Source: Microbacterium murale
GTDB taxonomy: Bacteria; Actinomycetota; Actinomycetes; Actinomycetales; Microbacteriaceae
Assembly (NCBI RefSeq): GCF_014635185.1
Contig: NZ_BMCM01000002.1
Coordinates: 558,001 to 622,000 of the forward strand
DNA length: 64,000 nucleotides
Direction: 5' to 3'
Positions 26,703-56,531 of this stretch are shown piece by piece (positions within the stretch are counted from its first letter, which is position 1; every line of letters begins with the position of its first letter). The translations under genes and the position numbers were made by a program. The notes beneath the pieces were generated by a model that saw nothing but the letters and a program-made list of their open reading frames with translations, did not search any database and was not told where the DNA came from.

Positions 26703-27565
26703 AGGACATGACCAGTGTGATCATCGCCGCGCACAATGAGGAATCCGTCATCGAACGATGCCTCGCCGCGGTCAGCCACGGCGGAATGCCGGTGCACGTG
26801 ATCGTGAGCGCGAACGGCTGCACGGATGCCACCGCCGAGCTCGCCCGAGCGCGGCACGCACTCGTCGTCGACAGGAGGACGGCCGGCAAGCCAGGGGCGC
26901 TCAACGCGGCGGAACGGCTCGCGGAGACGTTCCCGCGGGTGTACCTCGATGCCGACATCCTCACCCCGCCGGGCGGAATCGCCACGCTCGTCACGGCGCT
27001 GAACGAGCACGCGGGCGTTCTGGCTGCGGTGCCTCGCCGTCGCATCAACACCTCGGGGCGCCCTTGGGCTGTGCGGGCGTACTTCCAGATCAATCAGCGC
27101 CTGCCGGTGTTCCGCTCCGGGCTGTTCGGTCGCGGGCTGATCGTCGTGTCCGAGCTCGGACGGGCCCGCTTCGGGGAGTTCCCCGAGTTGGTCGCCGATG
27201 ACCTCTTCCTCGATGCGCAGTTCTCCGCCGCGGAGAAACTCGAGGTCGCCGACGTCGAGGTCGTCGTCGAAGCGCCGTGGACGACCGTCGATCTGATGAA
27301 CCGGCTCGTACGGGTGCGTCGAGGCAACGCCGAGATGCGCCGCGCCGCGGCCGATCAGGGCATCGACGCCGTCGTGCGGCCGTCTGATCGCTGGTCGTGG
27401 CTCCGCGATGTCGTGATGCAACAGCCTCGGCTCGCCCCGGACGCGCTCGCCTACGTGGCCATCACGATGCTGGCGGGCTATCGCGCCCGGCGCGCTCCGC
27501 ACGGTGGCTGGGGTCGGGACGAGAGCACCAGGATGCTGTCGGAGACGGGGAGCACTGCGCCATGA
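26699..27565 (+). CDS. GT2-family glycosyltransferase
   Basis: A 288-residue protein with the GT-A start SVIIAAHNEESVIERCLAAV, VSANGCTDAT, KPGALNAAER and the metal-binding YLDADIL. It lacks long membrane helices, so it should act in the cytoplasm on a lipid-linked acceptor. It starts with ATG at 26699 overlapping the preceding stop and closes the operon that began at 22121. Only 13 bases separate it from the convergent vanZ gene, with no room for a strong terminator. Sugar unknown. Confidence 0.87.
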   Translation: MKDMTSVIIAAHNEESVIERCLAAVSHGGMPVHVIVSANGCTDATAELARARHALVVDRRTAGKPGALNAAERLAETFPRVYLDADILTPPGGIATLVTALNEHAGVLAAVPRRRINTSGRPWAVRAYFQINQRLPVFRSGLFGRGLIVVSELGRARFGEFPELVADDLFLDAQFSAAEKLEVADVEVVVEAPWTTVDLMNRLVRVRRGNAEMRRAAADQGIDAVVRPSDRWSWLRDVVMQQPRLAPDALAYVAITMLAGYRARRAPHGGWGRDESTRMLSETGSTAP

Positions 27566-28141: not shown

Positions 28142-28144
28142 GTG

Positions 28145-33122: not shown

Positions 33123-33809
33123 ATGACACTGGCGGATCTGATGCGTGCGCTCTTGCGCCGCTGGTACGTGGTGCTCCTCGTCATGGGGATCTCATTCGGC
33201 CTCGCGTACACGGCCACCCGCACGGAGCCCGTCTATCACGCACGTACCGAGGTGGTGCTGCTCGCTCCCGCGAGCGCACGTTATCCGAACGAGCTGGTCA
33301 CGACTTCCGAGTCGCTCATCCTGACTGCCGGTATTCTCGCCGAGCAGATCAACGGCACCGAGCAGCGACTGAAGTTCGGCAGCGCGCTGGTCAACCCGGT
33401 CGGCTCTCCCGGAATCGGGGAGGACACCTGGATCCAACTGCTCGACACGGGCAACCAATGGGTGCCGGCATTCGAACAGCAGGTGCTCGTCGTCGACGCG
33501 ACCGGCGCGACGCCCGAACGGGTGTCGGAGCGCATCGTCTCGGCGACGGACCTCATCAGAACAGAGCTCGCCGCACTGGAACGGGATCAGGGCGTCGAGG
33601 GGCTGAACAGCATCGGCATCCGCTCGTCTCCTGAAACTCCGCGGATCGATGAGATCGATGGCAGCGGTATGCGAGCCGCGGGCATGACCCTGATCCTGGG
33701 CATGCTGGCAACGATCGGCGTGGTGACGATACTCGAAGTACGTCGCTCTACTCGAGCCGAGGCTTCCTCCCGATCATCGAATGGAATCGCTCATGAACTT
33801 CGCTCGTAA
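33123..33809 (+). CDS. Second Wzz-like membrane protein
   Basis: A 228-residue protein with helix one (WYVVLLVMGISFGLAYTA), the Wzz-type ARTEVVLLAPASARYPNEL, an outer domain of about 150 residues and helix two (MTLILGMLATIGVVTIL) near the C-terminus. No kinase domain is present. ATG at 33123 follows GGACGAAGAG; the frame is open to 33042. It differs from typical Wzz in having the C-terminal helix followed by only about 25 residues. The next gene begins before this one ends. Confidence 0.8.
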   Translation: MTLADLMRALLRRWYVVLLVMGISFGLAYTATRTEPVYHARTEVVLLAPASARYPNELVTTSESLILTAGILAEQINGTEQRLKFGSALVNPVGSPGIGEDTWIQLLDTGNQWVPAFEQQVLVVDATGATPERVSERIVSATDLIRTELAALERDQGVEGLNSIGIRSSPETPRIDEIDGSGMRAAGMTLILGMLATIGVVTILEVRRSTRAEASSRSSNGIAHELRS

Positions 33810-34329
33810 GCTCGGCGTCATTCTGCGTCGCCACCTGTTCAACATGTGGATCAACGGGTTCGTCTCCTCCGTCCTCGTTCCCGATCGGGCGCGCTGGATG
33901 CTCCTGCGTGCGTCGGGGATCCCCGTGGAGCGCTCCGTGATCGACGCGCGGGGCTTCATCGGCAGCCGAACAGTCACGATCGGGAAGGGAAGCTCCCTCA
34001 ACTACGGTGTCTTCCTTGACGGCTCCGCTCAGGTCAGCATCGGCCGGGGCGTCTCGATCGGAATGAATGCGCTCGTGCTCACCGGCTCCCACGAGCTCGG
34101 CAGCCCCGACAAGCGCGCCGGTGAACTCAACAGCGCGCCGGTCACGATCGAAGACGGCGCGTGGATCGGTGCCAACGCCGTCATCCTCCCCGGAGTGACC
34201 GTCGGACGCGGTGCGGTCGTGGGCACGGGTGCGATCGTCATGAAGGACGTCGCGGAGGGCAGCGTCGTGATGGGCAATCCCGCCAGGGTCGTGCGCCGCA
34301 TCGACGAACCCGACGCGGCGCGCGCCTAG
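33781..34329 (+). CDS. Hexapeptide-repeat acyltransferase (WcaF/maltose O-acetyltransferase-like)
   Basis: A 182-residue left-handed beta-helix enzyme with hexad repeats (SVIDARGFIGSRTVTIGKGS, VSIGRGVSIGMNALVLTG) and the catalytic histidine in GSHELGSPDKRAG, then IEDGAWIGANAVILPGVTV and VVMGNPARVVRR. It should O-acetylate a sugar of the repeat unit using acetyl-CoA in the cytoplasm. ATG 33781 overlaps the Wzz-like gene by 29 bases; ATG 33793 is an alternative. The next gene converges with a six-base gap. Confidence 0.87.
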   Translation: MESLMNFARKLGVILRRHLFNMWINGFVSSVLVPDRARWMLLRASGIPVERSVIDARGFIGSRTVTIGKGSSLNYGVFLDGSAQVSIGRGVSIGMNALVLTGSHELGSPDKRAGELNSAPVTIEDGAWIGANAVILPGVTVGRGAVVGTGAIVMKDVAEGSVVMGNPARVVRRIDEPDAARA

Positions 34330-34335
34330 CGGACC

Positions 34336-36096
34336 TCACACGAGCGGCACCGACGCCACGATGACGTTCGCGAGGAATCCGACCGTGCTCGGCCGAGGCT
34401 GGACGGCGCCGCGCACGACACCGTCGAGCCATTCCTGGTCGACGTAGCCCGTCGCCGCCAACGGCTCGAGGATCTCGGGGTGCCGGCGCCAGTGCTCCAC
34501 GATCTTCCCGGCGAGCACCACGACGCCGGCAGGAGCCCGGTTCGCACCGCGCACGCGCTGGAGCGCCTTGCTCGCCAACTTGCGCGCAAGCAGCCCCTTG
34601 TTGGCAACGCCTTGCCAGCGCGTCGGATGCGCGTACGCGGATGGCGCGAGTCGCCCTTCCAGGGGAATCGCGGCGAGCTGCGGATCCAACTCCAGCAGCA
34701 GCGACGACAGGTACCTGTGAGCCCCTTTGTCCTGCGGGCTGAGCCGCTGCGCAAGGGTGATGAACTGCTCGTCGAGCATCGGATTGATCACCACACGCTG
34801 ATAGGCGACCGCCGTGTCGGTCGCCCCCGCCCAGCGCTGCATCCGATGCCGAAGATAGAGGGAATCGGTGGCGTGAAGCCATTCCGATCCGCCCGACTGC
34901 AACGCCGCGAGCACTTCCGCATCGGCGGCATCCCGCGCCCAGGCGGAGAAGTCGTCGACCAGCACGCCCGGCTCGATCGACTCGTTGGCGAACAACCGCC
35001 ATGCGGCCAGGCGCGACGCCTCCCGCGCGGTCACCGGTCGTTCCTGGTCGCTGCCCATGTAGTAGAACCCGCGGGCGACTTCGCCGCCGAGTCCGGAAAT
35101 GCGCACGCCCTGCTCGAAGCTGCGCTCGTCCCAGCCGAGCACGGCGAGGGTCACCGGATCCGCCATGCCGTCAAGGCGTATCGCCGCCGCGCGGCACGCT
35201 TCCCACGCCTCAGTAGGCGGCACATCGCCCAGGTCTGCCGCCTCGTAGACCTCGTGCCTGATGCCGAAGCGGGCGGCAAGCTTCGAGGCGATCTGCACGT
35301 CGCCGCTCTCAGCGCTCCCCAACGTCATCGCCCGCAGGCCGCGACGACGCGCCGGCGGGATCGCGGCGAGAAGCAACCGCGAATCCAAGCCGCCCGTCAG
35401 CTGCAGCACCGCATCTGGCTCATCGTCAAGGACTCCGGCCAACGAGCGGCGCAGCAGCGCCGCCGCATCGGAGACCGCGTCGACGAGGGTGACCGCTGAG
35501 GCATCAGCGGGCGATGCAGGCGCCACACTCACGCCACCGGCATCCAGACGTGCGCTCGCACCCGGTGTCAGCTTGTGGACGCCGTCATGCAGGGTGCGCT
35601 GACCGAGCTGCCAGCCCACCAGCGACTGCACGGCCAGCGCGGTCTCATCCAGTGCCGCATGCTGCGCCCAGCCGACAAGCAGCGCCGACGTCGCCAGCAC
35701 TCCGTCTGCACCAGCACGTTCATCGGTGTGGAACAGCTGCCGGAACCCCATCGAGTCGGCGACCATCGTGACGCCGTCGTCATCACCCGTCACTGCGGCG
35801 AACGGCGGCAACAGCGACGTGAGCGCGCGCGGATCGACGCGCATGCCTTCCGCAACATGTTCCGGCGTCACACGCCCCACCGTGTCCCGCGCGACACGCG
35901 AGAGCACCATGGTGTGAGGATGTCCCTGCGCCGCGCCCAGCCCCCACGACGTCAGCGTCGACGCACCATGGCGCGACTCCGTGACGCCCGACGGAGCCTC
36001 GGGCGCCGCCGCGGGCGCTGCGTCGGGCGCTGCTGCGGGCGCTGCGAAGCCGCCTCTCCCGGCGATGAAGCCAGGAAGTGCGGCATCGTCATACAT
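34336..36096 (-). CDS. Asparagine-synthetase-like amidoligase lacking the N-terminal cysteine
   Basis: A 586-residue protein whose synthetase domain has the PP-loop LQLTGGLDSRLLLAA (TGGLDS at 234-239, for the usual SGGxDS). It adenylates a carboxylate and couples it to an amine. Residues 90-190 still resemble the end of the Ntn glutaminase domain (FAAVTGDDDGVTMVADSMGFRQL). But the protein begins with a 45-residue Ala/Pro-rich stretch and has no Met-Cys start, so it cannot hydrolyse glutamine. That points to an amine other than glutamine-derived ammonia, as in beta-lactam synthetase and lasso cyclase. It starts five bases after the acyl-carrier-protein stop and ends the 14-gene operon. Amide formation on a uronic acid, or with the carrier-bound amine, is inference. 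Confidence 0.85.
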   Translation of the reverse strand: MYDDAALPGFIAGRGGFAAPAAAPDAAPAAAPEAPSGVTESRHGASTLTSWGLGAAQGHPHTMVLSRVARDTVGRVTPEHVAEGMRVDPRALTSLLPPFAAVTGDDDGVTMVADSMGFRQLFHTDERAGADGVLATSALLVGWAQHAALDETALAVQSLVGWQLGQRTLHDGVHKLTPGASARLDAGGVSVAPASPADASAVTLVDAVSDAAALLRRSLAGVLDDEPDAVLQLTGGLDSRLLLAAIPPARRRGLRAMTLGSAESGDVQIASKLAARFGIRHEVYEAADLGDVPPTEAWEACRAAAIRLDGMADPVTLAVLGWDERSFEQGVRISGLGGEVARGFYYMGSDQERPVTAREASRLAAWRLFANESIEPGVLVDDFSAWARDAADAEVLAALQSGGSEWLHATDSLYLRHRMQRWAGATDTAVAYQRVVINPMLDEQFITLAQRLSPQDKGAHRYLSSLLLELDPQLAAIPLEGRLAPSAYAHPTRWQGVANKGLLARKLASKALQRVRGANRAPAGVVVLAGKIVEHWRRHPEILEPLAATGYVDQEWLDGVVRGAVQPRPSTVGFLANVIVASVPLV

Positions 36097-36101
36097 CTGG
36101 A

Positions 36102-36359
36102 TCAGACCGCCGAGATCTTCGAGTCGACGAACTCGGTCAGCGATCCGACGGTCTCGAACAGTTCGGCGCCGAACTCGTCGTCATCGATCGTGATGTCGAA
36201 TCGATCTTCCAGCGCACCGACAAGCGACACGACACCGAAGGAGTCGAGTTCGGGAAGAGAGCCGAACAACGCTGTGGTGGCGTTGAGTTCGTCGGGGCTC
36301 TGTGAGAGTTCGAGGGCGTCGATCAGAACGGAACGGACCGCGTCGATGGTGTCAGACAT
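36102..36359 (-). CDS. Acyl carrier protein
   Basis: An 85-residue acidic four-helix carrier protein. The phosphopantetheine site is S40 in LPELDSFGVVSLVGALEDRF (usual core DSL, here DSF), followed by the typical acidic DITIDDDEFG. The ATG at 36359 has AAGGAG upstream; the frame opens at 36446 but that part overlaps the decarboxylase. It lies between an AMP-ligase/PLP-decarboxylase pair and an amidoligase. It therefore most likely carries an aminoacyl group rather than fatty acid. No ketosynthase or phosphopantetheinyl transferase gene is in the window. Confidence 0.9.
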   Translation of the reverse strand: MSDTIDAVRSVLIDALELSQSPDELNATTALFGSLPELDSFGVVSLVGALEDRFDITIDDDEFGAELFETVGSLTEFVDSKISAV

Positions 36360-36381
36360 GTGTAGTGCTCCTTGCGTTGGA

Positions 36382-37608
36382 TCAGACGAGCACTTCGGCA
36401 GGTGCCGGGTGCCCGAGGAATGCGGTGGGGCTTGCAGTGAGGCCATAAGCCCCCTGCTGGAAGATCACGATCAGATCGTCGATGACGGCTGGAGGCAGCG
36501 TGATGTCGTCGCCGAGAAGATCCAGAGGGGTGCAGAGGCAGCCGACGACACTCACGCCATCGTCAGCGGTCTCCGCGACACGGTTTCCGACCGCGAGCGG
36601 GTAGTTGCGTCGAATCGCCTGGCCGAAGTTGCCCGAGGCGGCGAGCTGGTGATGCATCCCGCCGTCCACCACGAGAAACGTCTTTCCGCGTGAGGTCTTC
36701 CGATCGACGACCTGCGTGACGTAGACACCGCATTCGCCGACGAGGTAGCGCCCGAGCTCGATCACCGGACTCGCGTGCGGGAATCGCGGAGCGATCACAT
36801 CGTCGACGAGGGCATGCAGATTCTCTGCGACAGCGTCCAGGTCGAGGGGCTGATCCTTCTCGGTGTACGGGATGCCGAACCCCCCGCCCAAGTTGAGATA
36901 CCGCAGCTCGCCGGGCAGATGCTCCGCAAGCTCGCTCGTCAGGTCGACGGTGCGCCGCTGCGCCTCAGCGATGATCTCCGCGTTGAGGTTCTGGGATCCG
37001 GCGAAGACATGAAACCCCAGAACGTCGACGCCCATCTTCGATGCGGCCTGGAGAACCTGTGGCACTTGCTCCGCATCGATTCCGAACTGCTGCGGGCCAC
37101 CGCCCATCCGCATGCCGGAGCCCTTCACCGCGAAATCGGGGTTCACCCGTATCGCGATCGTCGGGGTCAGCCCGAGGCTCCTGCCTGCTGCCTCGACACG
37201 GGCGAGCTCGGTCGTCGATTCGATCTCCACGATGATGCCGGCCGCGACGGCCTGCCTGATCTCTGCCGCGATCTTCCCCGGGCCCGCGAAACTCACTCGA
37301 TCAGGGCGGATGCCGGTGTCGAGGGCCGTGTGCATCTCCATCGCGGATGCCACGTCGATCCGATCGACTTTGCCGGCCAGATGCTGAACGATCGCCGGCA
37401 TCGGGTTCGCCTTCATCGCGAAGCTCAACTCGACCTTCGACGGCAGAGCAGCACGAAGCTGCGCCACCCGCGCGTCGAGAAGAACTCGGTCGTAAGCGAA
37501 GAAAGGCGTCGATCCGATCCTCGCGGCGAGGCGGCTCAGCGGCATCCCCCCGACACGGAGTTCGCCGTCGATGGTCCCGAATCGGGCGACGTGTTCATGC
37601 GGTCTCAT
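36382..37608 (-). CDS. Fold-III PLP-dependent amino-acid decarboxylase
   Basis: A 408-residue enzyme of the alanine-racemase-fold decarboxylase family (DAP/ornithine type). The PLP lysine is K66 in FAMKANPMPAIV. HVFAGSQNLNAE, the phosphate-binding LNLGGGFGIPY, ELGRYLVGECGVY and the C-terminal CLCTPLDLL (cysteine contributed to the partner's active site) and QQGAYG all match. It overlaps the AMP-ligase gene by four bases and is followed 22 bases later by the carrier protein. Close parallels by context are BtrK of butirosin synthesis, which decarboxylates carrier-bound glutamate, and the decarboxylase of exosortase-A polysaccharide loci. Its substrate, free or carrier-bound, is inferred. Confidence 0.9.
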   Translation of the reverse strand: MRPHEHVARFGTIDGELRVGGMPLSRLAARIGSTPFFAYDRVLLDARVAQLRAALPSKVELSFAMKANPMPAIVQHLAGKVDRIDVASAMEMHTALDTGIRPDRVSFAGPGKIAAEIRQAVAAGIIVEIESTTELARVEAAGRSLGLTPTIAIRVNPDFAVKGSGMRMGGGPQQFGIDAEQVPQVLQAASKMGVDVLGFHVFAGSQNLNAEIIAEAQRRTVDLTSELAEHLPGELRYLNLGGGFGIPYTEKDQPLDLDAVAENLHALVDDVIAPRFPHASPVIELGRYLVGECGVYVTQVVDRKTSRGKTFLVVDGGMHHQLAASGNFGQAIRRNYPLAVGNRVAETADDGVSVVGCLCTPLDLLGDDITLPPAVIDDLIVIFQQGAYGLTASPTAFLGHPAPAEVLV

Positions 37609-39167
37609 GCGTTCACCTCATGCGTGATCAGATTGCGGTCGAATTTACCGTTCGGCGAGCGCGGCAGGTCGCTTCTGATCTGAATCAGAGCGGGCACCAT
37701 GTACATCGGCAACCGCTGACGCAGCGCGGTCATGAGCGCACCCGGCTCGAGCGGGTCAGCGCTCGGCGTCACCACGAGGACGATGCGCTGCCCGAGATCG
37801 GCGTCCTCGACGCCGATCGCCACGGCATCACGGGCGAGGCCGGTGCTGTACGCCGCCTCCTCGATCTCCGTAGGGCTCACCCGATAGCCGGAGGTCTTGA
37901 TCATGTCGTCCTTGCGTCCGACGAAGTAGAGAAACCCTTCCTCATCGGCGACGACGGTGTCACCCGACCACACGGCCATCTCGGGGGTGCGCCACTGCTG
38001 ACCTGGCCGAGTGATCGGGCGGTACCGCTCGGCTGTGCGCTCCGGATCGTTCCAGTAGCCCAGCGCCACGAGTGCGCCCCGGTGGACGAGTTCGCCCTCC
38101 TCCCCCGGCTCGCACTCGCTCCCGTCCGGGCGCAGCACCAGGATCTCGGCGTTCGGGATCGCTCTGCCGATCGAGTCCGGTCGGCGGTCCACCTCCGCGG
38201 GATCGAGATAGGTCGAACGGAACGCCTCGGTCAGTCCGTACATCAAGTAGGGCGCGGCATCCGGGAAGATCTCGCGCAGACGATCGAGCGCCGGTCGCGG
38301 CATCCGCCCGCCGGTGTTGGCGAAGTACCTGAGAGCATGAGCAGCCTCTTCTGGCCAGGGCACGGCCAGAAGCTGAAGCCACAGCGGAGGGACGCAGGTG
38401 AGCCCGGTGACGCGATGGCGCGCACACAGCTTGACGACCTCCTTCGGAAGCAGATAGTTCATCAGCACGCAGTGCGCCCCGACCGCGAACGCGGTGGTGA
38501 CCTGGCTGAGGCCCGCATCGAAGCTCAGCGGCAGCACGCTGAGGATCACGTCCTCGGCCGTGTTGTGCAGATACGTGCTGACGCTCTCGGCACCGACGAG
38601 GAGGTTCCGGTGGCTGAGCACGACGCCCTTCGGCCTGCCGGTGCTGCCGGACGTGTACAGGATCGCAGCCGGATCGACGTCGATCACCTCGGTCGTCAAC
38701 GGCTGGCCGCCCGCGCGCTGCCCGTCGTCCCACTGATGCAGGCGGATGCCCTCGGGGGTGATCGCGGGCGGCGAGCCCACGATGACGACGTCGGCGACCG
38801 CCGTTGCCGACAGGGTCTCGAGCAGCTGGCTCAGCCGATCAGCAGAGGTCACGAGCACACGTGCACCGCTGTCGGCGAGGATGTGCCCCACCTGAGTGGG
38901 CTTGAGCGCATGATTGATCGGGACGAAGAGTCCCCCGGCTGCCGATGTCGCGAAGATGGCGAAGACGGTTTCCAGACGCTTCTCGAGGTAGATGGCGACT
39001 CGATCGCCGCCGTCGAGCCCCAACCCGTTCAACTGGGCCGCCGCCGACTGGGTCGCTGTCCACACCGCGTCGTACGAGACGGTCTCGTCCTTGTACGTCA
39101 GCGCTGGGGCGTCCGGAGTCGTCGATGCCGCCTCGGAGAGCAGATGATGAAACGCCGTGCGGATCAT
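37605..39167 (-). CDS. AMP-forming acyl/aminoacyl ligase (ANL superfamily)
   Basis: A 520-residue adenylate-forming enzyme. It carries the P-loop-like ILYTSGSTGRPKGVV, YLMYGLTEAFRSTYL (A5-type motif), SGDTVVADEEGFLYFVGRKD with the hinge, DMIKTSGYRVSPTEIEEA, and the catalytic lysine in SPNGKFDRNL. It should activate a carboxylic or amino acid and load it on the neighbouring carrier protein or CoA. ATG at 39167 overlaps the preceding glycosyltransferase stop (ATGA); the open frame to 39344 lies inside that gene. The order ligase, decarboxylase, ACP matches exosortase-A-associated sets. Confidence 0.9.
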   Translation of the reverse strand: MIRTAFHHLLSEAASTTPDAPALTYKDETVSYDAVWTATQSAAAQLNGLGLDGGDRVAIYLEKRLETVFAIFATSAAGGLFVPINHALKPTQVGHILADSGARVLVTSADRLSQLLETLSATAVADVVIVGSPPAITPEGIRLHQWDDGQRAGGQPLTTEVIDVDPAAILYTSGSTGRPKGVVLSHRNLLVGAESVSTYLHNTAEDVILSVLPLSFDAGLSQVTTAFAVGAHCVLMNYLLPKEVVKLCARHRVTGLTCVPPLWLQLLAVPWPEEAAHALRYFANTGGRMPRPALDRLREIFPDAAPYLMYGLTEAFRSTYLDPAEVDRRPDSIGRAIPNAEILVLRPDGSECEPGEEGELVHRGALVALGYWNDPERTAERYRPITRPGQQWRTPEMAVWSGDTVVADEEGFLYFVGRKDDMIKTSGYRVSPTEIEEAAYSTGLARDAVAIGVEDADLGQRIVLVVTPSADPLEPGALMTALRQRLPMYMVPALIQIRSDLPRSPNGKFDRNLITHEVNA

Positions 39168-40483
39168 GGCGCCCGCCGCTCGGCCAGGAAGCGTGCGAAC
39201 TCGGCCGGATCGTCGAGTGGCACGTAGCGGCGGTCCTGCGCGTCGTGATCGCTCGGAGTTGACGGCGGCACCGCCGGCCCTTCCTGCGAGAACCCGGTGA
39301 CATCGTCGAAGACCGAGACGTAGGCCTCTGCTTGCGGCCGCCAATCCAGCTCGGTCGAGACGCGCTCACGCGCCCGGATGCCCAGCTCTGTGCGCCGTGC
39401 GGGGTCATCGATGAGCGCTTCCACCTCATCGGCGAATGCCGCGATGTCGCCGGACGGCACGTACTGCACGGCGTCCGCACCCGAGATCCGGGTCTCGGCG
39501 AGGTCGAATGAGACCGCGGGCAGTCCGTACGACATGTACTCCATGGTCTTGTTCATCGTGGACAGGTCGTTGAGGGGCGTCTTGAGGTCGGGCGACAATC
39601 CGATGTCGGCTCGACTCAGGTGCTCGGCGATCTCCACACGATCGACACGTCCGGTGAATGTGACGTGATCGTCGAGTCCGAGACTCGTCGACTGTCGCTT
39701 GAGATCCTCGAGGCAGTCGCCGAAGCCCAGTAGCGTCGCTGTGACGTTGCTGCGCCCGCGCTTGTGCACCAGTTCGTCCATGACCAGGAGCGCCTGGTCG
39801 ACCCCGTCCTGCGGCCCCATGATGCCGAGGTAGACGAGAGCGATCTCGTCAGGGCGTCGTGGATTCGACGGGTAGATCGGCCTCATCTGCTGCGTGTCGG
39901 GCCCGCTGCGCACGACCGTGACGTGTCCGGGACGGCGATCACCGCGGCGGACCGCCACTGCCTTGTACGACTCATTCGTCGACATGATGCGATCCGCGCT
40001 GCGGAACGTGCGGCGCTCCAACCACCGCAGCCCGCCGTACTCCAGCCGCTTGAGGATTCCGCTCGGCTTCCCGAACCGGGAGATGAAGAGCTCCGGATTG
40101 AGATCGTGGTGGTCGAAGATGAAGCGCACCCCGCGGATGCGCCACAACTTCGCGAGGAGCCAGTAGGTGTCCGGCGGATTGCACGCCTGGATGACCTCGA
40201 AGGGCCGACGCCGCCACACCTTCAACGAGAGCCACGCCGTGCGCACCCAGCTGTAGGCGAACTCCCACACGAACCCGAGAAGACCCTCCGCCTCCGGCGC
40301 CGGCGTGTATTTGAAGATCTCGACGCCGTCGATCGTCTGCCGTGCAGGGTCGCCGGGCCCCTTCGGACAGATGACGCTGACGCGGTATCCACGCTGGATG
40401 AGCGCCTGGCACTCGAGCCACACCCGTCGATCCAGCGGAACCGGGAGGTTCTGGACGATGATCAGTACATGCGGGGATCTCAT
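39164..40483 (-). CDS. GT4-family glycosyltransferase
   Basis: A 439-residue GT-B enzyme beginning HVLIIVQNLPVPLDRRVW, with FIFDHHDLNPELFISRF, the donor-site start LVYLGIMGPQDGVDQAL, GFGDCLEDLK and MNKTMEYMSYGLPAVSFDL. The form is that of a WcaI/WsbD-like hexosyltransferase. The last 30 residues are a variable polar tail. It overlaps both neighbours by four bases. Donor and acceptor unknown; it adds one sugar of the repeat unit in the cytoplasm. Confidence 0.88.
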   Translation of the reverse strand: MRSPHVLIIVQNLPVPLDRRVWLECQALIQRGYRVSVICPKGPGDPARQTIDGVEIFKYTPAPEAEGLLGFVWEFAYSWVRTAWLSLKVWRRRPFEVIQACNPPDTYWLLAKLWRIRGVRFIFDHHDLNPELFISRFGKPSGILKRLEYGGLRWLERRTFRSADRIMSTNESYKAVAVRRGDRRPGHVTVVRSGPDTQQMRPIYPSNPRRPDEIALVYLGIMGPQDGVDQALLVMDELVHKRGRSNVTATLLGFGDCLEDLKRQSTSLGLDDHVTFTGRVDRVEIAEHLSRADIGLSPDLKTPLNDLSTMNKTMEYMSYGLPAVSFDLAETRISGADAVQYVPSGDIAAFADEVEALIDDPARRTELGIRARERVSTELDWRPQAEAYVSVFDDVTGFSQEGPAVPPSTPSDHDAQDRRYVPLDDPAEFARFLAERRAP

Positions 40484-41691
40484 GAGCCGTAGACCTCTTC
40501 CTCGATGATGCGTAAGACGGCGTCTTTCGTCGGTTCCCAGGAGCGTCCCACGACTGATGAAGCCGCCGCGTGCGCGCGTTCGTCAAGATCAGGCGCAGAC
40601 ACTGCCTGGCTGAGAGCCTCGGCGAGCGCCGCGGCCGTCGGATCGGCCCAGCGGACCGATGGGCTCGGCAGTACGCGGCGCGCGAGGTCGATGTCGTTGA
40701 TGATGGGGATGTTCCCCGCGACGAGCATCTCCTCCGCGACGAGCGTGATGTTCGTGAACGACATCGCCAGGCCCGCGATCGTGCGTCCGTAGAGGTCGTT
40801 CAGCTCAGTCGCGGTGAGACGTCCGTGGAACGTGATCGGGAAGTCCAGATCGCGCGGCGCATCGCCGTACACATGGATCTCCTGCTCGGGGTGACGCTCA
40901 TGGAACAGCCGGAGAGCGATGATGGCCAGTGGATAGCCACGGCGCGGGTGACCTGGGTGACAGTAGAAGACGATTCCGCTGCGCACGGTGCCAGCCGGCG
41001 GCAGGGCATAGGCGACCGAATCGCACCCGAACGGCACGACATCGTTCGTCAGCCCGGTCTCCTCCTGGATCATGCCGTCAAGCATCTCGCCGAGGACCAC
41101 CCGACGAAACGGCAGCCGGTACGTCATCGCGGCGAACTCGTGCTCAGCGCCGTGACCGTAGAAGAACGGCTCGTAGTCCTGGATGAAGTAGAGGCGTCGC
41201 ACCGCCTGCGTGCAGTAGCGGACGATCAGATGAGCAGACTCCCATCCGGATGCCACGATCGCGTCGATGCCATCCGCACCCTTGGTGATGTCACGGACCT
41301 CGGCACGGATGTGCGGCCAATGACGACGGATGACGGCGGTCGTGGCGGCGACGTCGAGCCCGTGCTTGTCATAGAGGAACAGCACGCATCTGTGCCCTCG
41401 GCTCTCCAGGGCCTGCACCATGCGAAACAGCGTGGTGTGACCACCGGAACCGGGCGCGGGTGGCGTCGACACCCAGCCGACGGTGATCGGCACTTCCCGC
41501 GCGGGCCTCGAGCTCGGCACCGGCAGCGCGGAGGGGACGTCGACGAGAAGGTCCTCGAATGCCAGGTTGAAGAGGAGCTCCGCCGCGCCGGTCCTGAAGT
41601 ACGCGCGCTGGGCGATGCGCTGCGCGATGCCCGCGACACCGACATCGCGTGCGCGTCTCGCTTTCGCGAGGACCCCATTCATCCGACTCAT
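40480..41691 (-). CDS. WsaF-like glycosyltransferase (rhamnosyltransferase-like GT-B)
   Basis: A 403-residue protein. After an 80-residue N-terminal part with basic and helical character it has ITVGWVSTPPAPGSGGHTTL, RLYFIQDYEPFFYGHG, DVVPFGCDSVAY and IVFYCHPGHPRRGYPLAI. These resemble WsaF, an alpha-1,3-rhamnosyltransferase of S-layer glycan synthesis, and its many relatives. The YFIQDYEP.FY segment is the clearest mark. The gene lies in the middle of the coupled operon. Sugar specificity is not proven. Confidence 0.82.
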   Translation of the reverse strand: MSRMNGVLAKARRARDVGVAGIAQRIAQRAYFRTGAAELLFNLAFEDLLVDVPSALPVPSSRPAREVPITVGWVSTPPAPGSGGHTTLFRMVQALESRGHRCVLFLYDKHGLDVAATTAVIRRHWPHIRAEVRDITKGADGIDAIVASGWESAHLIVRYCTQAVRRLYFIQDYEPFFYGHGAEHEFAAMTYRLPFRRVVLGEMLDGMIQEETGLTNDVVPFGCDSVAYALPPAGTVRSGIVFYCHPGHPRRGYPLAIIALRLFHERHPEQEIHVYGDAPRDLDFPITFHGRLTATELNDLYGRTIAGLAMSFTNITLVAEEMLVAGNIPIINDIDLARRVLPSPSVRWADPTAAALAEALSQAVSAPDLDERAHAAASSVVGRSWEPTKDAVLRIIEEEVYGS

Positions 41692-43115
41692 GCTCGATCC
41701 CCCTCGACTCGATCAGCCCCGACAGCCGCGTGATCGCGTACCGACGCTGCCGCATGCCGAAGAATATCGGCGTGCCCTGCAATCATGGCGTCCATCAGCG
41801 CCCGCGTGGGCGCGGGTGACGGACGGATGCCGGCGCGCACCCGGTCGGCCACCTCGTCGATCGCCGCGCCGAGCTCGGCTGCGTTCGGCTGGCGCTGACT
41901 ACGCCGGCGCGCACTGGCTACTGCCGCATCCGATACGCCGCCCGCAGAACCACTCGGATTCGCGACCAGCACGGACCCCGCCTCTGCACCCACCAGCTCC
42001 CTCGCTCCGCCGAAATCGGCGAGGACGAGCGGAAGTCCCACGGCTGCGGCTTCCGTGGCCGCGACCGGCCAGCCTTCGAAGAACGAGTCGAGGACGAACG
42101 CGTCTGCGGCCGCCAGGAGCGTGCGCGCATCGGATGAGGACAACAGGGTGACCCGCGATGCGGATGCGCTGCTTCGACGGATGGCGTCCGCTCGACGAAC
42201 CTCGGACCAGTCCGATGGGTCACCGGCGACGACGAGACGAACCCGGGGGTCTTTCACATGCGAGAGGAACGACGATACGAGACCGGCCACGTTCTTCTGC
42301 GAATCGTAGCGGGCAAGACAGACGAAGACGATGTCGTCCTCGAGGTCTGCCCGGAGCACTTCGCCCAGTGCGTGTCGCGCCGCACGGCGTTCTTCCTGCG
42401 GCGGAGCCTCTTCTGGTGGCGCGGCATTGGCGACTACGTGGATACGTCCGGCCAATGCCGGCGATACGTGCCGCACGTGGAATTCTCGGACGAGCTCGCT
42501 GACGGAGACTGCGGCGGCGGCGGCGCTCAGGATCCGAGCGAATCGGTTCCATCGGGCGCGTGAATAGTGGATCTCGGTGTTGTGCAGGACCGGCACCAGG
42601 GGAATCCTCGAGGCCACCGCTGCACTCTCCAGATACTCGGGCGCGCCGTGCAACGCGACCACGTCGGGTGCGATCGTCTGCAGAGTCGGCGCCGCCGTGG
42701 ACATGTCGACCACGACGACCTCGATTCCGAGGGAACGAAGACGAGCGGCGCGGACACCGTCATCGGTGCACAGCACCACGACGCGGATGCCGGACGAAGG
42801 AAGCGCGCCGGCCAGCGTTTCGACGACGGATCCGATTCCGCCGATGTCCATCGCTCCGGTGAGCAGCGCGCACGTCAGTGCCTCACCGCCTGCCGGCATC
42901 GTCGAGGGCAGCGTCCCCACCGGTCGGCTCACCGCGGCCGGGAGCTTGGGCAGCGTCCGCTGGAACATCCTCCTGGTGAGCCGATGAACGTATCCGTAAC
43001 GGAAATGCGGGGGGATCAGATCGGTGAGCGTCACCACGAGCCCGAAGACGAGCGCTTCGCAGCGCGCCGATGTCCGCCCAGTGCCACCCGTGCGCCCCGG
43101 GACTCGCGGACTCAT
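41688..43115 (-). CDS. GT4-family glycosyltransferase
   Basis: A 475-residue enzyme. After about 90 residues of N-terminal extension comes ALLTGAMDIGGIGSVVETLAG, then LVPVLHNTEIHYSR, the donor half FVCLARYDSQKNVAGLVSSF, VVAGDPSDWSEV, DAFVLDSFFEGWPVAATEAA and VLADFGGARELVG, a normal GT4 layout. ATG at 43115 overlaps the flippase stop; the frame is open to 43643 but that part is antisense to no known gene and overlaps the flippase. Its end overlaps the next gene. Confidence 0.87.
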   Translation of the reverse strand: MSPRVPGRTGGTGRTSARCEALVFGLVVTLTDLIPPHFRYGYVHRLTRRMFQRTLPKLPAAVSRPVGTLPSTMPAGGEALTCALLTGAMDIGGIGSVVETLAGALPSSGIRVVVLCTDDGVRAARLRSLGIEVVVVDMSTAAPTLQTIAPDVVALHGAPEYLESAAVASRIPLVPVLHNTEIHYSRARWNRFARILSAAAAAVSVSELVREFHVRHVSPALAGRIHVVANAAPPEEAPPQEERRAARHALGEVLRADLEDDIVFVCLARYDSQKNVAGLVSSFLSHVKDPRVRLVVAGDPSDWSEVRRADAIRRSSASASRVTLLSSSDARTLLAAADAFVLDSFFEGWPVAATEAAAVGLPLVLADFGGARELVGAEAGSVLVANPSGSAGGVSDAAVASARRRSQRQPNAAELGAAIDEVADRVRAGIRPSPAPTRALMDAMIAGHADILRHAAASVRDHAAVGADRVEGDRA

Positions 43116-44638
43116 CGTGCAGCTCCGAGCCGTGCGAGCAGCGGTACTCGAGCGCCGAACCGCGTGCCGGCAAGCAGCGACGCGGCATCCGAGATGGCGC
43201 GACGCGCAAACAAGAAGCTGAGCCCGAGATGGACGACGCCGATGATCGTCGCCACGATGACGAGCGCCAGGATCCCGGGCAGCTGCGCCGTGAGGACCAT
43301 ACCGCCCCAGCCCGCGGCACCCGCCCCCACGACGATGATCACGAGCGACAGGAACGGACGTGTCACCGCGCTCACCCGCATCTTCAGTGCGCGTGCGACG
43401 AGGAACCACCGGACGACGGTCGCCACCACTGCGACGGCAAGGAACCCCCAGGCGATCGCGACGAGTCCGCCGCGCGCGACCAGCAGAGTCGTGCCGAATG
43501 TCACCGCGTCGGTGATGAAGGCATACACGAACCACGTCCCCGGTCTGCCCAGCCCGTAGAAGAGACCATGATCGAGCCACGCCGCGACAGACAGCGTGCC
43601 CGCGATCGCGAGCACCTGCGCGACGGGCACGCTTTTCCCCCACCCGTCACCGAAGACGATCGGCACCATCAGTGGAGCGGTGATCGCCACCACCGTCAAT
43701 GGCAACGACAGCAGCAGGTAGACGAGCCGCAGCGAACGCAGATAGGCGTTCTGCAGACGGGTCACCTCTTCGCGGATCCGCGCGAACGCCACGTTCGTGA
43801 CGGGAACGATCGCACTTCCGGTGAGGTCCTGAACGATCTGCACGAGTCGCTGGGCGATGTTCATGAATCCGAGTGCGGCCGCGCCGAGCATCGCTGATGT
43901 GACGGCGGCCTCGCCCCACGCCCGGAGCATCGCGATGAACTCGACGCCGAGCACCTGCCCGCCGAACTTCGACATGCGCGTGAAGTCCGCGCGTACGAAC
44001 GTCCACCGCGGCCTCCACCTGGCCGTGACCCAGATGAGGATCGCGGACACGACGGCCGCGGTCAGCGTCTGGGCGACGAGCGCCCAGACCCCGAAACCGG
44101 TGAAGGCCAGTACGAGGGCGGCGGCCTGTGCGATCACTGCCGCGGTAGCGCCCTGCGCCGCGATCGCGGCGAACCGCATCTCGCGTCGCATGATGGCGGT
44201 GGGGACCGATCCGATCGCGGTGACGATCACCCAGAGGGAGAGCGCCTGCAAGACCGGCACGACCGTATCGTTCCCGAAGATCGGCCCCATGATCGGCGCG
44301 ATCGCCCAGAGCAGCCCGCACAGCAGGATCCCCGCGCCCATCGAGAACCAGAACGCCGTGCTCAGCATCCGCTCGGTCGTCTTTTCCACCTGCACGATGT
44401 ACGCCGCGAATCCGAGGTCAGCGAGCAGATAGAAGAAGGGCAGCACTGTGGATGCCGCGGCGAGTGTGCCGAAGTCCTCCGGCGAAAGCAGCCGCGTCAG
44501 AATCGCGATCGTCACGAAGCTGAAGATGCGGATGACCCACTTCTGCGCGGTGAGCCAGATCACGCCCCCTGCGGCGCGACGCCCGACCTCGGCCGTGGGC
44601 TCGACGGTGTTCGGATTCGGATCCACGGATGCGCTCAC
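43112..44638 (-). CDS. Wzx-type oligosaccharide flippase
   Basis: A 508-residue membrane protein of the MOP superfamily with about fourteen hydrophobic helices. Marks include GVIWLTAQKWVIRIFSFVTI, LARLLSPEDFG-like sequence near the start (LTRLLSPEDFGTLAAASTVL), and ALGFMNIAQRLVQIVQDLTG. It should turn the undecaprenyl-linked repeat unit to the outer face. It is the only flippase of this class in the window. It overlaps genes on both sides by four bases. A split role for both glycans is possible. Confidence 0.9.
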   Translation of the reverse strand: MSASVDPNPNTVEPTAEVGRRAAGGVIWLTAQKWVIRIFSFVTIAILTRLLSPEDFGTLAAASTVLPFFYLLADLGFAAYIVQVEKTTERMLSTAFWFSMGAGILLCGLLWAIAPIMGPIFGNDTVVPVLQALSLWVIVTAIGSVPTAIMRREMRFAAIAAQGATAAVIAQAAALVLAFTGFGVWALVAQTLTAAVVSAILIWVTARWRPRWTFVRADFTRMSKFGGQVLGVEFIAMLRAWGEAAVTSAMLGAAALGFMNIAQRLVQIVQDLTGSAIVPVTNVAFARIREEVTRLQNAYLRSLRLVYLLLSLPLTVVAITAPLMVPIVFGDGWGKSVPVAQVLAIAGTLSVAAWLDHGLFYGLGRPGTWFVYAFITDAVTFGTTLLVARGGLVAIAWGFLAVAVVATVVRWFLVARALKMRVSAVTRPFLSLVIIVVGAGAAGWGGMVLTAQLPGILALVIVATIIGVVHLGLSFLFARRAISDAASLLAGTRFGARVPLLARLGAAR

Positions 44639-45864
44639 GGGGATACCTCATCTGCGGCACGAGCACCCACGCCGACCTTGCGGGCGATCTTCTGGGACAG
44701 CATGGAGACTTCCGACGGGAGGTCTCCGATCCACCCGCGGAGCCCGTACGAGATGGCGGCCTCACGATAGAAGTCGGCCAGCTCGCTCGCCATCTTCGCC
44801 AGCCCGAAGCGCTCGATCGCGAATCTGCGGCCGAACTCGCCCAGCTCCTCGCGCCTGCGCTGATCGCTGAGGAGGTCGTCGATGAAGCCGGACAGGAGTT
44901 CCACGGGATGCTCGACCTCGTCGTCACTCCAATAGCTGTACCGTGCCAGGGCTTCAGCCGTCGACTCGTCGAAGAGCTCTGCTCTGCCTCCCTCACCGTG
45001 AGCGATGAGCGGCGTACCGAAGGCGAGCGTTCGTGCTGCCGACCCTCCCATGCCGATCATGATGTCAGCGGCGGCGTAGGCCGGGCGCGGATTCGCCATC
45101 GGGCCGACGAATCGCACCGCCGCGCGCCCCACCGCATCGTTCACTCTTTCACCGGCGGCGTGAAGCTGGCGGGCGTTGTCGCCGGTGCCGACGATGACGA
45201 GAGTGGCCTTGGTGGCGAGCCCGCGCATCGCCTCGATCGCGATGCCGATGGGCACTGATTTCATGCTCAGGTCGAGCCGACTGACGATCACCAGGAGCGG
45301 ACCATCGAGTTCATGCTCCACGCGGAATGCCGCACCGGCTTCCGGATCCGGTCGGTCGAGCTCCGTGTCGACGGGCGGGCTGATCAATCGAGTCAGACCC
45401 GGCCGGTCATGCAGGTCATCCAGCTGATAGCCGGTGCCGACGATCATCGGCATACGACGCTTGATCTTCGGGGAGACCTCCATCTCCCACACCGTCTGCG
45501 CCCACGGGCGGCGGCCGAAGCGCGAGAAGTTCCAGTACGTCGGCCGTGCTCCCCCGCCCCAGGAGCCGTACACGTGAACGAGTTCGGCGTCGTGCGCCTT
45601 TGCCAGAGCGGCGAGTTGACGCCCTCGCGCGAGCATCGACGATGCCGGGTCGTAGACCACGACCTCGATTCCACGCTCCTCGGCGATGTCGAGAAGCGAC
45701 GGTCCCTTCGGAAGCGCATCCGCGGAGCCGACCAGGATCGAGTGGATGCCGTGCTGCTCGACCTCGACGGCGAGGTCGACGGCATTGATCTGCGTGCCGC
45801 CGAGCTCCAGGCTGTTCAGATGGACGAGGACCCGGGCCGCGTCTCGCCTGCGGTTCGTGCTCAT
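44635..45864 (-). CDS. GT4-family glycosyltransferase
   Basis: A 409-residue GT-B enzyme with VLVHLNSLELGGTQINAVDL near the start, the donor half LLVIVSRLDLSMKSVPIGIA, LVIVGTGDNARQL, AADIMIGMGGSAARTLAFG and the usual Glu after TPLIAHGEGGRAE. It overlaps the aminotransferase and the flippase genes (ATGA). Fourth of the operon's glycosyltransferases counted from the left. Sugar unknown. Confidence 0.87.
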   Translation of the reverse strand: MSTNRRRDAARVLVHLNSLELGGTQINAVDLAVEVEQHGIHSILVGSADALPKGPSLLDIAEERGIEVVVYDPASSMLARGRQLAALAKAHDAELVHVYGSWGGGARPTYWNFSRFGRRPWAQTVWEMEVSPKIKRRMPMIVGTGYQLDDLHDRPGLTRLISPPVDTELDRPDPEAGAAFRVEHELDGPLLVIVSRLDLSMKSVPIGIAIEAMRGLATKATLVIVGTGDNARQLHAAGERVNDAVGRAAVRFVGPMANPRPAYAAADIMIGMGGSAARTLAFGTPLIAHGEGGRAELFDESTAEALARYSYWSDDEVEHPVELLSGFIDDLLSDQRRREELGEFGRRFAIERFGLAKMASELADFYREAAISYGLRGWIGDLPSEVSMLSQKIARKVGVGARAADEVSP

Positions 45865-46970
45865 CTCGGTTCGACGCTTTCACGCAACGCACCGGACACG
45901 GCGGCCTGCTGGTCGGCGGTCAGGTGCGGGAACATCGGCAGCGACAGGATGCTGTCGGCCGCCGCCTCTGCCACCGGGAACTGACCCCGGCGGTATCCGA
46001 GGCCCTGGTAGGCCGCGGTCAGGTGCACCGGTGTCGGATAGTGGATGCCGACGCCGATGCCCGCTTCGCCGAGTTCCGCCATCACGCGGTCGCGCTCTTC
46101 GACACGGACGACGTACAGGTGCCACACGTCGTCGTTCCCCGGCCGAACAGCCGGGGTGCGGATGCCGTCGACGCCGTCGAACAGCTCTGCGTATCGTGCG
46201 GCGGCCGCGCGACGCGCGGCGTTCCAGGCGTCCAGCCGGCGCAGCTTCGCACGCAGCACGGTGGCCTGCACAGCATCCAGTCGTGCGTTCATGCCGATCC
46301 GGTCATGCACGTATTTGACGCTGCTGCCGTGCCCGCCGAGGTTCCTGACGATGTCGGCGATCGCCGGGTCATCCGTCATCACCGCGCCGGCGTCGCCGGC
46401 GGCACCCAGATTCTTGCCCGGGTAGAAGCTCGTCGCGGCGACGCGGCCCAGCGCGCCGGCACGCCCGGCCGGGCCGGAAGCGCCCTGCGACTGCGCGGCA
46501 TCCTCGATGATGACGAGGTCGTGCTTCTGCGCGATCGGCGTGATGTGCTCCATCGGCGCCATCTGACCGAACAGGTGAACGGGCGCGATCGCGCGGGTCC
46601 GCTCGGTGATGGCGGCCTCGATCGCGCTCGGGTCGATCAGGAGGTGATCGTCGTCCACGTCGACGAACACCGGCACCGCGCCGAGCCGCGATGCCGCCTC
46701 GGCGGTCGCGATGAATGTGTTGGCGGGCATGATGATCTCGTCGCCCGGCTGCACACCGACCGCGCGGTAGGCGAGCTCAAGGGCATCTGTGCCGTTGGAG
46801 ACTCCGATGACATGCTCGACGCCGATGTACGCGGCGTACTCGCGTTCGAATGCCGCGACCTCAGGGCCGCCCACGAACGCAGCCGCCTCCAGTTGCGACT
46901 TCCACCCCTGAAGGATCTCGTCGGCGACCTCCGCCTGCTGTGCCGCAAGGTCGAGGAATGGCACGTTCAT
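45861..46970 (-). CDS. DegT-family sugar aminotransferase (WbpE-like)
   Basis: A 369-residue PLP aminotransferase with VSNGTDALELAYRA, MPANTFIATAEA, PVHLFGQMAPM, IEDAAQSQGA and the lysine K186 in SFYPGKNLGAAGDAGAV. The FYPGKNLGA form is typical of enzymes aminating 3-keto sugars (WbpE/WlbC, FdtB) rather than PglE. In the same operon a Gfo/Idh oxidoreductase could supply a 3-keto sugar, and a WbpD-like acetyltransferase is encoded at 58090. I infer 3-amination. It overlaps the acetyltransferase gene upstream and the GT downstream. Confidence 0.88.
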   Translation of the reverse strand: MNVPFLDLAAQQAEVADEILQGWKSQLEAAAFVGGPEVAAFEREYAAYIGVEHVIGVSNGTDALELAYRAVGVQPGDEIIMPANTFIATAEAASRLGAVPVFVDVDDDHLLIDPSAIEAAITERTRAIAPVHLFGQMAPMEHITPIAQKHDLVIIEDAAQSQGASGPAGRAGALGRVAATSFYPGKNLGAAGDAGAVMTDDPAIADIVRNLGGHGSSVKYVHDRIGMNARLDAVQATVLRAKLRRLDAWNAARRAAAARYAELFDGVDGIRTPAVRPGNDDVWHLYVVRVEERDRVMAELGEAGIGVGIHYPTPVHLTAAYQGLGYRRGQFPVAEAAADSILSLPMFPHLTADQQAAVSGALRESVEPR

Positions 46971-47599
46971 GAATCCGCTCCCAGCTGTCGTGCCGGCACG
47001 CCGGCCCAGATCTCTTGATCAGGCACGTCCACCAGCACAACGCTGCCCATCCCGACCGTGGCGCCTGCGCCGACGGCCACGCCCTGCTTCACAGAGGCGT
47101 TCATTCCGACGTAGGCGGCTTCGCCGATCCGTGCGGAACCGCCGATGGCCGCTCCTGCCGCGAGAGTCGCGAAGTCGTCGATCACGTCGTCGTGCGTGAT
47201 CGTGCAGTTCGGCATGACGACGACATGACTGCCGAGCGTGGCGTCCGCCGTGATGACGGTGCCGTCCAGCACGATGCTTCCGGCGCCGATGTCGCTCGTC
47301 GAGCCGATCCGAGCGGTGCGCGCGGCGAAGATCGCGAACCGGTCTGCGCCGACACCGAGCCGGCGAAGCCGCTGGACCACCTGGCGACGAATCGTGCTCG
47401 GCCCGATGCAGACGAGCAGCTGCTCGTCGCGATCGACAGCCGAGTCGATGCTTCCGCGCACGGGCACTCCACTGATCTCCGTGCCGTGCAGCGCGGTGTC
47501 GTCGTCCAGAATGCCCGTGACCCCGACCATTCCCGCAGCCAGCACTTCCCTGGCCAGTCCACTCGCCCCGATCAGCAGAACCCCCTCCGCCTCGGTCAT
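46967..47599 (-). CDS. PglD/NeuD-family sugar O- or N-acyltransferase
   Basis: A 210-residue protein with a Rossmann-like N-terminal domain (GVLLIGASGLAREVLAAG, VTGILDDD) and a C-terminal left-handed beta-helix (IGSTSDIGAGSIVLDGTVIT, MPNCTITHDDVIDDFATLA, VYVGMN-like AYVGMNASVKQGVAVG). The likely catalytic base is the His of THDDVI. PglD acetylates the 4-amino group of UDP-sugars. It lies between two DegT genes, so it probably acylates the product of one of them. Overlaps on both sides are four bases. Confidence 0.88.
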   Translation of the reverse strand: MTEAEGVLLIGASGLAREVLAAGMVGVTGILDDDTALHGTEISGVPVRGSIDSAVDRDEQLLVCIGPSTIRRQVVQRLRRLGVGADRFAIFAARTARIGSTSDIGAGSIVLDGTVITADATLGSHVVVMPNCTITHDDVIDDFATLAAGAAIGGSARIGEAAYVGMNASVKQGVAVGAGATVGMGSVVLVDVPDQEIWAGVPARQLGADS

Positions 47600-50794: not shown

Positions 50795-50840
50795 GATTCC
50801 CCTCACTTCTCCCCAGATACGTGACATCACGGTCAATGCG
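50795..50840 (-). promoter_or_regulatory. Short leader of the 14-gene operon
   Basis: Only 70 bases separate the operon start from the end of the giant DUF4082 gene. The leader holds CTGGGGA (TCCCCAG at about 50811-50817 on the plus strand) and a GAGGGGAATC ribosome-binding site. No -10/-35 pair is clear, so the operon may also be read through from the upstream gene. Confidence 0.3.

Positions 50841-50872: not shown

Positions 50873-56531
<5,659 letters not shown>

Follow-up and report, generated by a model that had tools for sequence, protein, structure and literature searches.

Here we report a computational follow-up of a carrier-protein module in Microbacterium murale. The stretch analysed, hereafter the window, is 64,000 nucleotides (nt) long (RefSeq assembly GCF_014635185.1, contig NZ_BMCM01000002.1, positions 558,001 to 622,000 of the forward strand), and four adjacent genes within it had been proposed, in a sequence-only reading, to decorate a polysaccharide with an amino acid. 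Judged by sequence, the core of the module is a trio consisting of an AMP-forming ligase, a pyridoxal phosphate (PLP) decarboxylase and an acyl carrier protein (ACP). The habitual partner of this trio is a predicted tandem-GNAT family, here called X2, which the sequence-only reading overlooked, and the fourth gene, which resembles AsnB, is an optional partner. We lean slightly towards the proposal as a whole, in which aspartate would become beta-alanyl-ACP and the beta-alanyl group would pass to a polysaccharide amine. We consider evenly balanced the broader claim that a widespread ACP route puts a decarboxylated amino acid, probably beta-alanine, on actinobacterial and some rhizobial surface polysaccharides, that X2 is a new ACP-dependent tandem-GNAT aminoacyltransferase acting on deacetylase-exposed sugar amines, and that in the lineage of the window the transferase has been replaced or lost.

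The genes discussed first are as follows (positions within the window; aa, amino acids):

37605..39167, minus strand: AMP-forming amino acid:ACP ligase, VinN-like, TIGR03098 (520 aa; predicted substrate-recognition residues D217, T285 and R317)
36382..37608, minus strand: fold-III PLP decarboxylase, BtrK-like, TIGR03099, predicted to act on aminoacyl-ACP (408 aa; PLP lysine K66)
36102..36359, minus strand: stand-alone ACP (85 aa, ATG start; S40 in LDSFG; PF00550, 32.5 bits)
34336..36096, minus strand: asparagine-synthetase-superfamily amide synthetase, beta-lactam/carbapenam synthetase-like, optional partner, hereafter the AsnB-like gene (586 aa; PF00733, 23.3 bits)
33781..34329, plus strand: hexapeptide-repeat (LbH) acyltransferase, convergent with the AsnB-like gene (PF00132, 46 bits)

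We infer substrate, product, transfer and acceptor from computed gene identities, residue conservation, gene order and co-occurrence, and from predicted folds. The substrate would be an acidic amino acid, L-aspartate being the likeliest; the ligase would adenylate its distal (beta) carboxylate and tether the amino acid to the phosphopantetheine on Ser40 of the ACP, where the PLP decarboxylase would strip the alpha-carboxylate to leave beta-alanyl-S-ACP. In the family at large, X2 would then acylate a polysaccharide building block, transferring the beta-alanyl group to one of its amines, which in many loci could be exposed by a partner deacetylase, X9; the finished polymer would carry pendant primary amines. 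For the window's genome, candidates for the last step are the AsnB-like amide synthetase and the LbH acyltransferase; alternatively, the module may be losing its function there. The omega-amino acyl group originally proposed could plausibly sit on a sugar amine, and our leading guess for its identity is beta-alanyl.

The ligase, decarboxylase and carrier protein

All four module genes correspond to open reading frames (ORFs) of the minus strand at the coordinates first given for them, with K66 of the decarboxylase in AMKANP and S40 of the ACP in LDSFG as had been described; a longer ACP ORF (36102-36446) overlaps the decarboxylase gene. They also stand, as claimed, at the end of a 14-gene polysaccharide operon: the 14 genes lie on one strand (34336-50836, minus), exact 4-nt overlaps occur at 11 of their 13 junctions, and gaps of 22 nt and 5 nt separate the ACP gene from the decarboxylase and AsnB-like genes, respectively.

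The ligase scores 736 bits against TIGR03098 (E 2e-221; curated cut-off 592) and the decarboxylase 569 bits against TIGR03099 (E 5e-171; curated cut-off 478), both families being named "exosortase A system-associated", and the ACP passes the PF00550 cut-off of 20.8 bits. Only two PP-binding matches exist in the whole genome, the module ACP being one of them, so that no large nonribosomal peptide synthetase/polyketide synthase (NRPS/PKS) line is in view.

For comparison we used decarboxylase loci comprising the best 80 of 168 relatives, one genome per species and led by close relatives, which yielded 69 ligases (>300 bits) and 67 ACPs (>40 bits) for alignment. The ACP gene lies just downstream of the decarboxylase gene in 66 of the 80 loci, and 56 pass a strict geometric test for the trio, which misses loci with upstream-extended stop-to-stop ORFs. 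One of the contigs, titled Stenotrophomonas maltophilia (L017), carries a trio that groups with Microbacterium, probably owing to contamination of the record.

Among Protein Data Bank (PDB) chains, 3wv4 and 3wvn, which we take to be VinN, rank first for the adenylation core of the ligase; the 226 bits against 3wvn are a one-domain match, and multi-domain NRPS chains sum higher. BtrK (7ru7) is the best solved relative of the decarboxylase, at 263 bits; chains named diaminopimelate decarboxylase score 150 bits at best. In VinN, Asp230 contacts the alpha-amino group and Ser299 and Arg331 the alpha-carboxyl group, as described in the available sections of PMC7756342. These residues align to D217, T285 and R317 of the ligase (3wv4 chain residues 246, 315 and 347), a mapping counted by hand with a constant 16-residue offset at all three sites, consistent with the VinN identity. 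In the 70-row ligase alignment, window included, position 217 is Asp in 68 rows and a gap in the other 2, position 285 is Thr in 70/70 and position 317 is Arg in 70/70, and the Asp and Arg of this recognition pair are absent from all eight ANL paralogues in the ligase's own genome. K66 of the decarboxylase is kept in 80 of 81 rows, and the one deviating row is a fragment of the split gene at L073; D39 and S40 of the ACP are kept in 68/68 rows.

Precedents for chemistry on the carrier come from excerpts of two papers: BtrK decarboxylates glutamyl-BtrI, that is, glutamyl-ACP (PMC7857480), the substrate of VinO is 3-methylaspartyl-ACP, FlvN recognises Asp, and VinN takes 3-methyl-Asp and, at low efficiency, Asp (PMC11284099). 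The VinN-type residues, the likeness to BtrK and the VinO and FlvN precedents together make Asp to beta-alanyl-ACP the leading reading. The idea that an amino acid is loaded and then decarboxylated on the ACP thus gains support at the level of sequence, and the butirosin precedent invoked for it is borne out for the decarboxylase; for the ligase the closest precedent is VinN, in a comparison that left out BtrJ. The same chemistry acting on glutamate, to give gamma-aminobutyryl (GABA)-ACP as in butirosin, or on 3-methylaspartate is an unlikely alternative. The glutamyl-ACP activity of BtrK, the best solved match of the decarboxylase, favours it, but the ligase matches VinN, which takes 3-methyl-Asp and uses Asp with low efficiency, and FlvN takes Asp (PMC11284099 in part; BtrJ again left out).

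X2, a habitual partner of the trio

Clustering of the decarboxylase neighbourhoods revealed X2, a family of ∼290 aa, in 56 of the 80 loci; in 36 of them it is no more than 150 nt from the trio, as measured by stop-to-stop ORF ends. The gene immediately precedes the ligase, in the same orientation, in several Nocardioides as well as in Promicromonospora, Actinoplanes and the rhizobia; many Microbacteriaceae, like Jiangella, have it convergent and after the ACP, and in other loci it is some kilobases away. The rhizobial loci L047, L051, L054 and L058 each combine ligase, decarboxylase, ACP and X2. When the genomes of the 24 loci without a local X2 were searched (two positive controls, both recovered), X2 was found elsewhere in eight and was not found in 16, namely those of L029, L034 and L073 and of 13 loci of one decarboxylase clade. 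X9, a polysaccharide deacetylase family (PF01522 in the member tested), occurs in 48 of the 80 loci, all 48 with X2, and eight loci have X2 without X9.

X2 was also counted in two genome surveys. Across 299 genomes of the family Microbacteriaceae, eight carry the decarboxylase above cut-off, and X2 is present in seven of these and in 0/291 others; across 394 genomes of the class, the decarboxylase is above cut-off in 15, and X2 is present in 13 of these and in 0/379 others. Joined, with the window's genome (G000) common to both, the surveys place X2 in 20 of 22 distinct decarboxylase genomes, the two without it being the window's genome and G630 (Fisher values for co-occurrence, 2e-13 and 1e-22). 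Decarboxylase matches below cut-off that rise above background were seen in G073 (344 bits, family) and G654 (377 bits, class), and X2 was not found in either. One survey genome, G281, shows the decarboxylase, X2 and the AsnB-like gene twice each with equal scores, on contigs C4 and C5, reflecting either a duplicated locus or a redundant assembly.

The assignment of X2 to the GNATs is based on weak sequence matches and a predicted fold. Four members had no match in NCBIfam at E ≤ 0.01, an X2 profile had none among PDB sequences, and Pfam gave weak PF00583 (GNAT) matches in 8 of 32 members (best E 0.0015). The structural model (pLDDT 93.0, pTM 0.90) has two GNAT-like halves, as read from its secondary structure, and its best Foldseek matches are GNATs, including Eis and the tandem MAB_4324, and N-myristoyltransferases.

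Several points weigh against the proposal and against X2 as its transferase. X2 was not found in the window's genome, and neither X2 nor X9 has a match among the window ORFs at E ≤ 0.01, so that a transfer step, if kept in this organism, would take another route; X2 was likewise not found in G630 or in the genomes of L029, L034 and L073. TM-scores from Foldseek do not exceed 0.61 by query length, a moderate value, and the acyl-donor loop (motif A) is atypical, reading R-x-x-[GST]-x-[RK] in 32/32 members (residues 94-99 in L023). The usual GNAT donor loop is Q/R-x-x-G-x-G/A, and the departure may mark a donor other than CoA; only co-occurrence points to the ACP as the donor. The X2 model derives from the same loci in which X2 was discovered, the surveys scored no more than 6 to 8 first-look candidates in each genome, and at least five survey positives are the same records as discovery loci (L004, L005, L015, L022 and L030), so the weight of the surveys lies on the absences elsewhere. 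The genomes are also related, 13 class matches falling in four genera, and the Fisher values therefore overstate the evidence. Finally, VinN Ser299 is not matched in the ligases, all of which (70/70) have Thr, a conservative change, and glutamate (giving GABA) or 3-methyl-Asp remain alternative substrates.

The last step in the window's genome

The window decarboxylase falls in a well-supported tree set of 31 rows, 29 of which have X2 (a quick tree, with 34 of 77 inner branches open), and the same-genus genomes G594 and G682 also have X2. Loss of X2 in the window's lineage is on these grounds the simplest reading, and three explanations for what follows have to be considered. Our probabilities for the rival explanations overlap, and the rivals are not mutually exclusive.

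In the route originally envisaged, the AsnB-like enzyme would activate a uronic acid with ATP and join the decarboxylated aminoacyl group or amine to the sugar carboxylate. The protein passes PF00733 narrowly (23.3 bits, cut-off 21) and fails TIGR01536, the glutamine-hydrolysing asparagine synthetases, by a wide distance (30 bits against a cut-off of 267), and a profile of 17 AsnB-like rows finds CarA (1.4e-5) and AsnB (1.3e-3). Its model (pLDDT 85.5) matches carbapenam synthetase, beta-lactam synthetase, the hydroxyamidotransferase TsnB9 and asparagine synthetases in Foldseek, CarA being the best match both by profile and by Foldseek E-value. QLTGGxDSR and GLGGE are invariant in the 17 rows, and no N-terminal glutaminase cysteine is conserved at the start of the alignment. 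The description of the gene as an asparagine-synthetase-like amidoligase thus survives in its PF00733 membership and its beta-lactam synthetase-like model, and is weak as a matter of sequence membership.

The AsnB-like gene is not a constant part of the set of four functions first described. It occurs in 16 of the 80 decarboxylase loci at >400 bits (21 at a looser score threshold) and, in the Microbacteriaceae survey, in six of the eight decarboxylase genomes and in 1/291 others; G191 and G279 have the trio and X2 without it, and G200 has it with no decarboxylase above cut-off. These counts rule out the gene as a fixed fourth member of the module. 

We consider the uronic acid route improbable. 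In its favour are the predicted carbapenam/beta-lactam synthetase fold with no conserved N-terminal cysteine, the position of the gene 5 nt after the ACP, its enrichment in Microbacteriaceae decarboxylase genomes and the failure to find X2 in the window's genome. It is opposed by the low frequency of the gene among the decarboxylase loci and by the three survey genomes in which it and the trio are uncoupled, and by the chemistry, in which the natural nucleophile would be a free amine rather than a thioester.

A second candidate for the last step is the LbH acyltransferase. A close copy was found in just one of the 80 loci, L073 (62%), where it lies beside the ACP in a genome in which X2 was likewise not found; the next best match in 233 family genomes is 43%. 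That it substitutes for X2 is a speculative hint from two related loci. At L073 (Microbacterium sp. CH12i, 9704-11220) the decarboxylase matches are split between two frames that overlap, perhaps because of a frameshift or an error in the assembly.

The third explanation, that the module is decaying in the window's lineage, X2 and X9 being lost and the trio going too, is quite improbable. The position of the window decarboxylase within the largely X2-bearing tree set, the presence of X2 in G594 and G682, and the two overlapping decarboxylase frames of L073, which also lacks X2, are consistent with it, but the active-site residues that were checked and the operon structure are intact in the window.

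Secondary metabolism and exosortase

Service of the trio to a small-molecule (NRPS/PKS) pathway was suggested by a clade of 13 decarboxylase homologues, labelled "BGC-type", most of which lie beside very large ORFs; one neighbour tested (L068) is a Condensation-domain protein by Pfam. This clade is separate (SH-aLRT 100), X2 was found in none of its 13 genomes (with 94 candidates scored out of 97 to 113 in five of these genomes), and with just two PP-binding matches in the window's genome we judge such a pathway very unlikely there. The clade members (L049, L052, L060, L066, L067, L068, L070, L071, L072, L075, L077, L079 and L080) are TIGR03099-like, come from Amycolatopsis, Herbidospora, Acrocarpospora and other hosts, and the very large ORFs beside most of them are probable NRPS/PKS clusters.

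Membership of the trio in an exosortase/PEP-CTERM sorting system, which the names of TIGR03098 and TIGR03099 would imply, is barely conceivable. A search of the window's genome for the exosortase family PF09721 gave no match, as had been noted for the genes in view, and of the 50 decarboxylase genomes searched among the 80, three match at E ≤ 0.001, two of them above cut-off; the exosortase link is ruled out within the sensitivity of the search, whose control matched M. jannaschii alone among 14 genomes and whose sensitivity to diverged exosortases is not proven. A module without exosortase is no oddity, contrary to what had been supposed, since 48 of the 50 genomes likewise have none above cut-off, and the family name is thus misleading for this clade.

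The polysaccharide operon and its flanks

The remaining ten genes of the operon, from the module upstream, and one gene outside it are:

39164..40483, minus strand: GT4 glycosyltransferase, directly upstream of the ligase (PF13692, 69 bits)
40480..41691, minus strand: WsaF-like glycosyltransferase (PF22772, 31.8 bits)
41688..43115, minus strand: GT4 glycosyltransferase (PF13692, 63 bits, scored on the longer ORF 41688-43643)
43112..44638, minus strand: MOP-family flippase (NF007773, 193 bits, under the cut-off of 273)
44635..45864, minus strand: glycosyltransferase (PF13692, 32.6 bits)
45861..46970, minus strand: DegT-type nucleotide-sugar aminotransferase (PF01041, 385 bits)
46967..47599, minus strand: NeuD/PglB-type sugar acetyltransferase (TIGR03570, 172 bits, cut-off 161)
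47596..48741, minus strand: DegT-type nucleotide-sugar aminotransferase (PF01041, 347 bits)
48738..49733, minus strand: NAD-dependent sugar epimerase/dehydratase (PF01370, 177 bits)
49730..50836, minus strand: Gfo/Idh/MocA sugar dehydrogenase, first of the 14-gene run (PF01408, 99.7 bits; TTG start)
26699..27565, plus strand: GT2 glycosyltransferase, X12 (X12 profile, 450 bits)

The start of the second GT4 gene was placed at the ATG at 43115, which overlaps the flippase stop by 4 nt. The two DegT aminotransferases, the NeuD-type acetyltransferase, the Gfo/Idh dehydrogenase and the epimerase together suggest amino-sugar synthesis, so that amine acceptors are likely. X12 adjoins X2 and the deacetylase X9 in many relatives. 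The polysaccharide genes are flanked by two DUF4082 proteins, one of 1888 aa with five DUF4082 stretches, DMFA2_C and Ig-like domains (50865-56531, minus strand) and one of 535 aa (28142-29749, plus strand), and relatives of both recur close to decarboxylase loci.

Comparison with known systems

In the open-access literature searched we found no description of the trio in polysaccharide loci with a tandem-GNAT partner, and the phrase "exosortase A system-associated" was not found there either. The text of Haft et al. 2006 (PMC1569441) makes no mention of decarboxylase, ligase, acyl carrier or asparagine/amidotransferase genes, and the accessible part of PMC9850573, on floc formation, has nothing on the module genes.

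If the proposal is correct, two NCBIfam families are misnamed in Actinomycetota, and X2, for which no Pfam or NCBIfam name was found, gains a testable function. Primary amines would be installed on surface polymers by chemistry otherwise known from macrolactam and butirosin biosynthesis, and finding the module in a genome would point to polymers that carry amide-linked amines.

The window ligase and decarboxylase resemble those of exosortase A loci in passing the TIGR03098 and TIGR03099 cut-offs, but no exosortase match occurs in the window's genome and few occur in the decarboxylase genomes tested. CarA and beta-lactam synthetase are among the best Foldseek matches of the AsnB-like model and share with it TGGxDSR at the PP-loop and the lack of a conserved N-terminal cysteine; they differ in identity (14-16%) and reach TM-scores of 0.44-0.50 by query length (TsnB9 is higher, at 0.62).

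The BtrJ ligase of butirosin biosynthesis is not known to be of the AMP-forming ANL type. The parallel with BtrI and BtrK is a fold-III PLP decarboxylase acting on an ACP-tethered amino acid, as set out in part of PMC7857480, whereas their product goes to an aminoglycoside. VinN/VinL/VinO (vicenistatin), FlvN and BolO/BolC/BolN (bolagladin) share with the window an ANL ligase with the Asp/Arg pair, a stand-alone ACP and a PLP decarboxylase, which in those pathways give a beta-aminoacyl-ACP (sections of PMC11284099 and PMC7756342; proposed for bolagladin). Their product enters a polyketide or lipopeptide, whereas the window genes end a polysaccharide operon. The operon further differs from the Vin system in that a single AMP-binding ligase and no match to a VinK-like acyltransferase occur among its 14 genes, and in the Thr that its ligase family has for VinN Ser299.

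In the Dlt system, DltA, DltC and DltB use a ligase and a small carrier to supply the aminoacyl group that decorates teichoic acids with D-alanine; there is no decarboxylase, and the transferase is an MBOAT protein that makes esters. The likeness to the module lies in a ligase and small carrier serving a surface polymer, and the difference in the use of an MBOAT transferase in place of a tandem GNAT; a Pfam scan of the operon genes gave no MBOAT (DltB) match (the flippase being scored by NCBIfam alone). If correct, the proposal would describe a way to a partly cationic Gram-positive coat that is distinct from Dlt. Use of the trio on polysaccharides with a tandem-GNAT partner seems undescribed, while its parts follow a known logic, that of VinN/VinL/VinO, BtrI/BtrK and Dlt.

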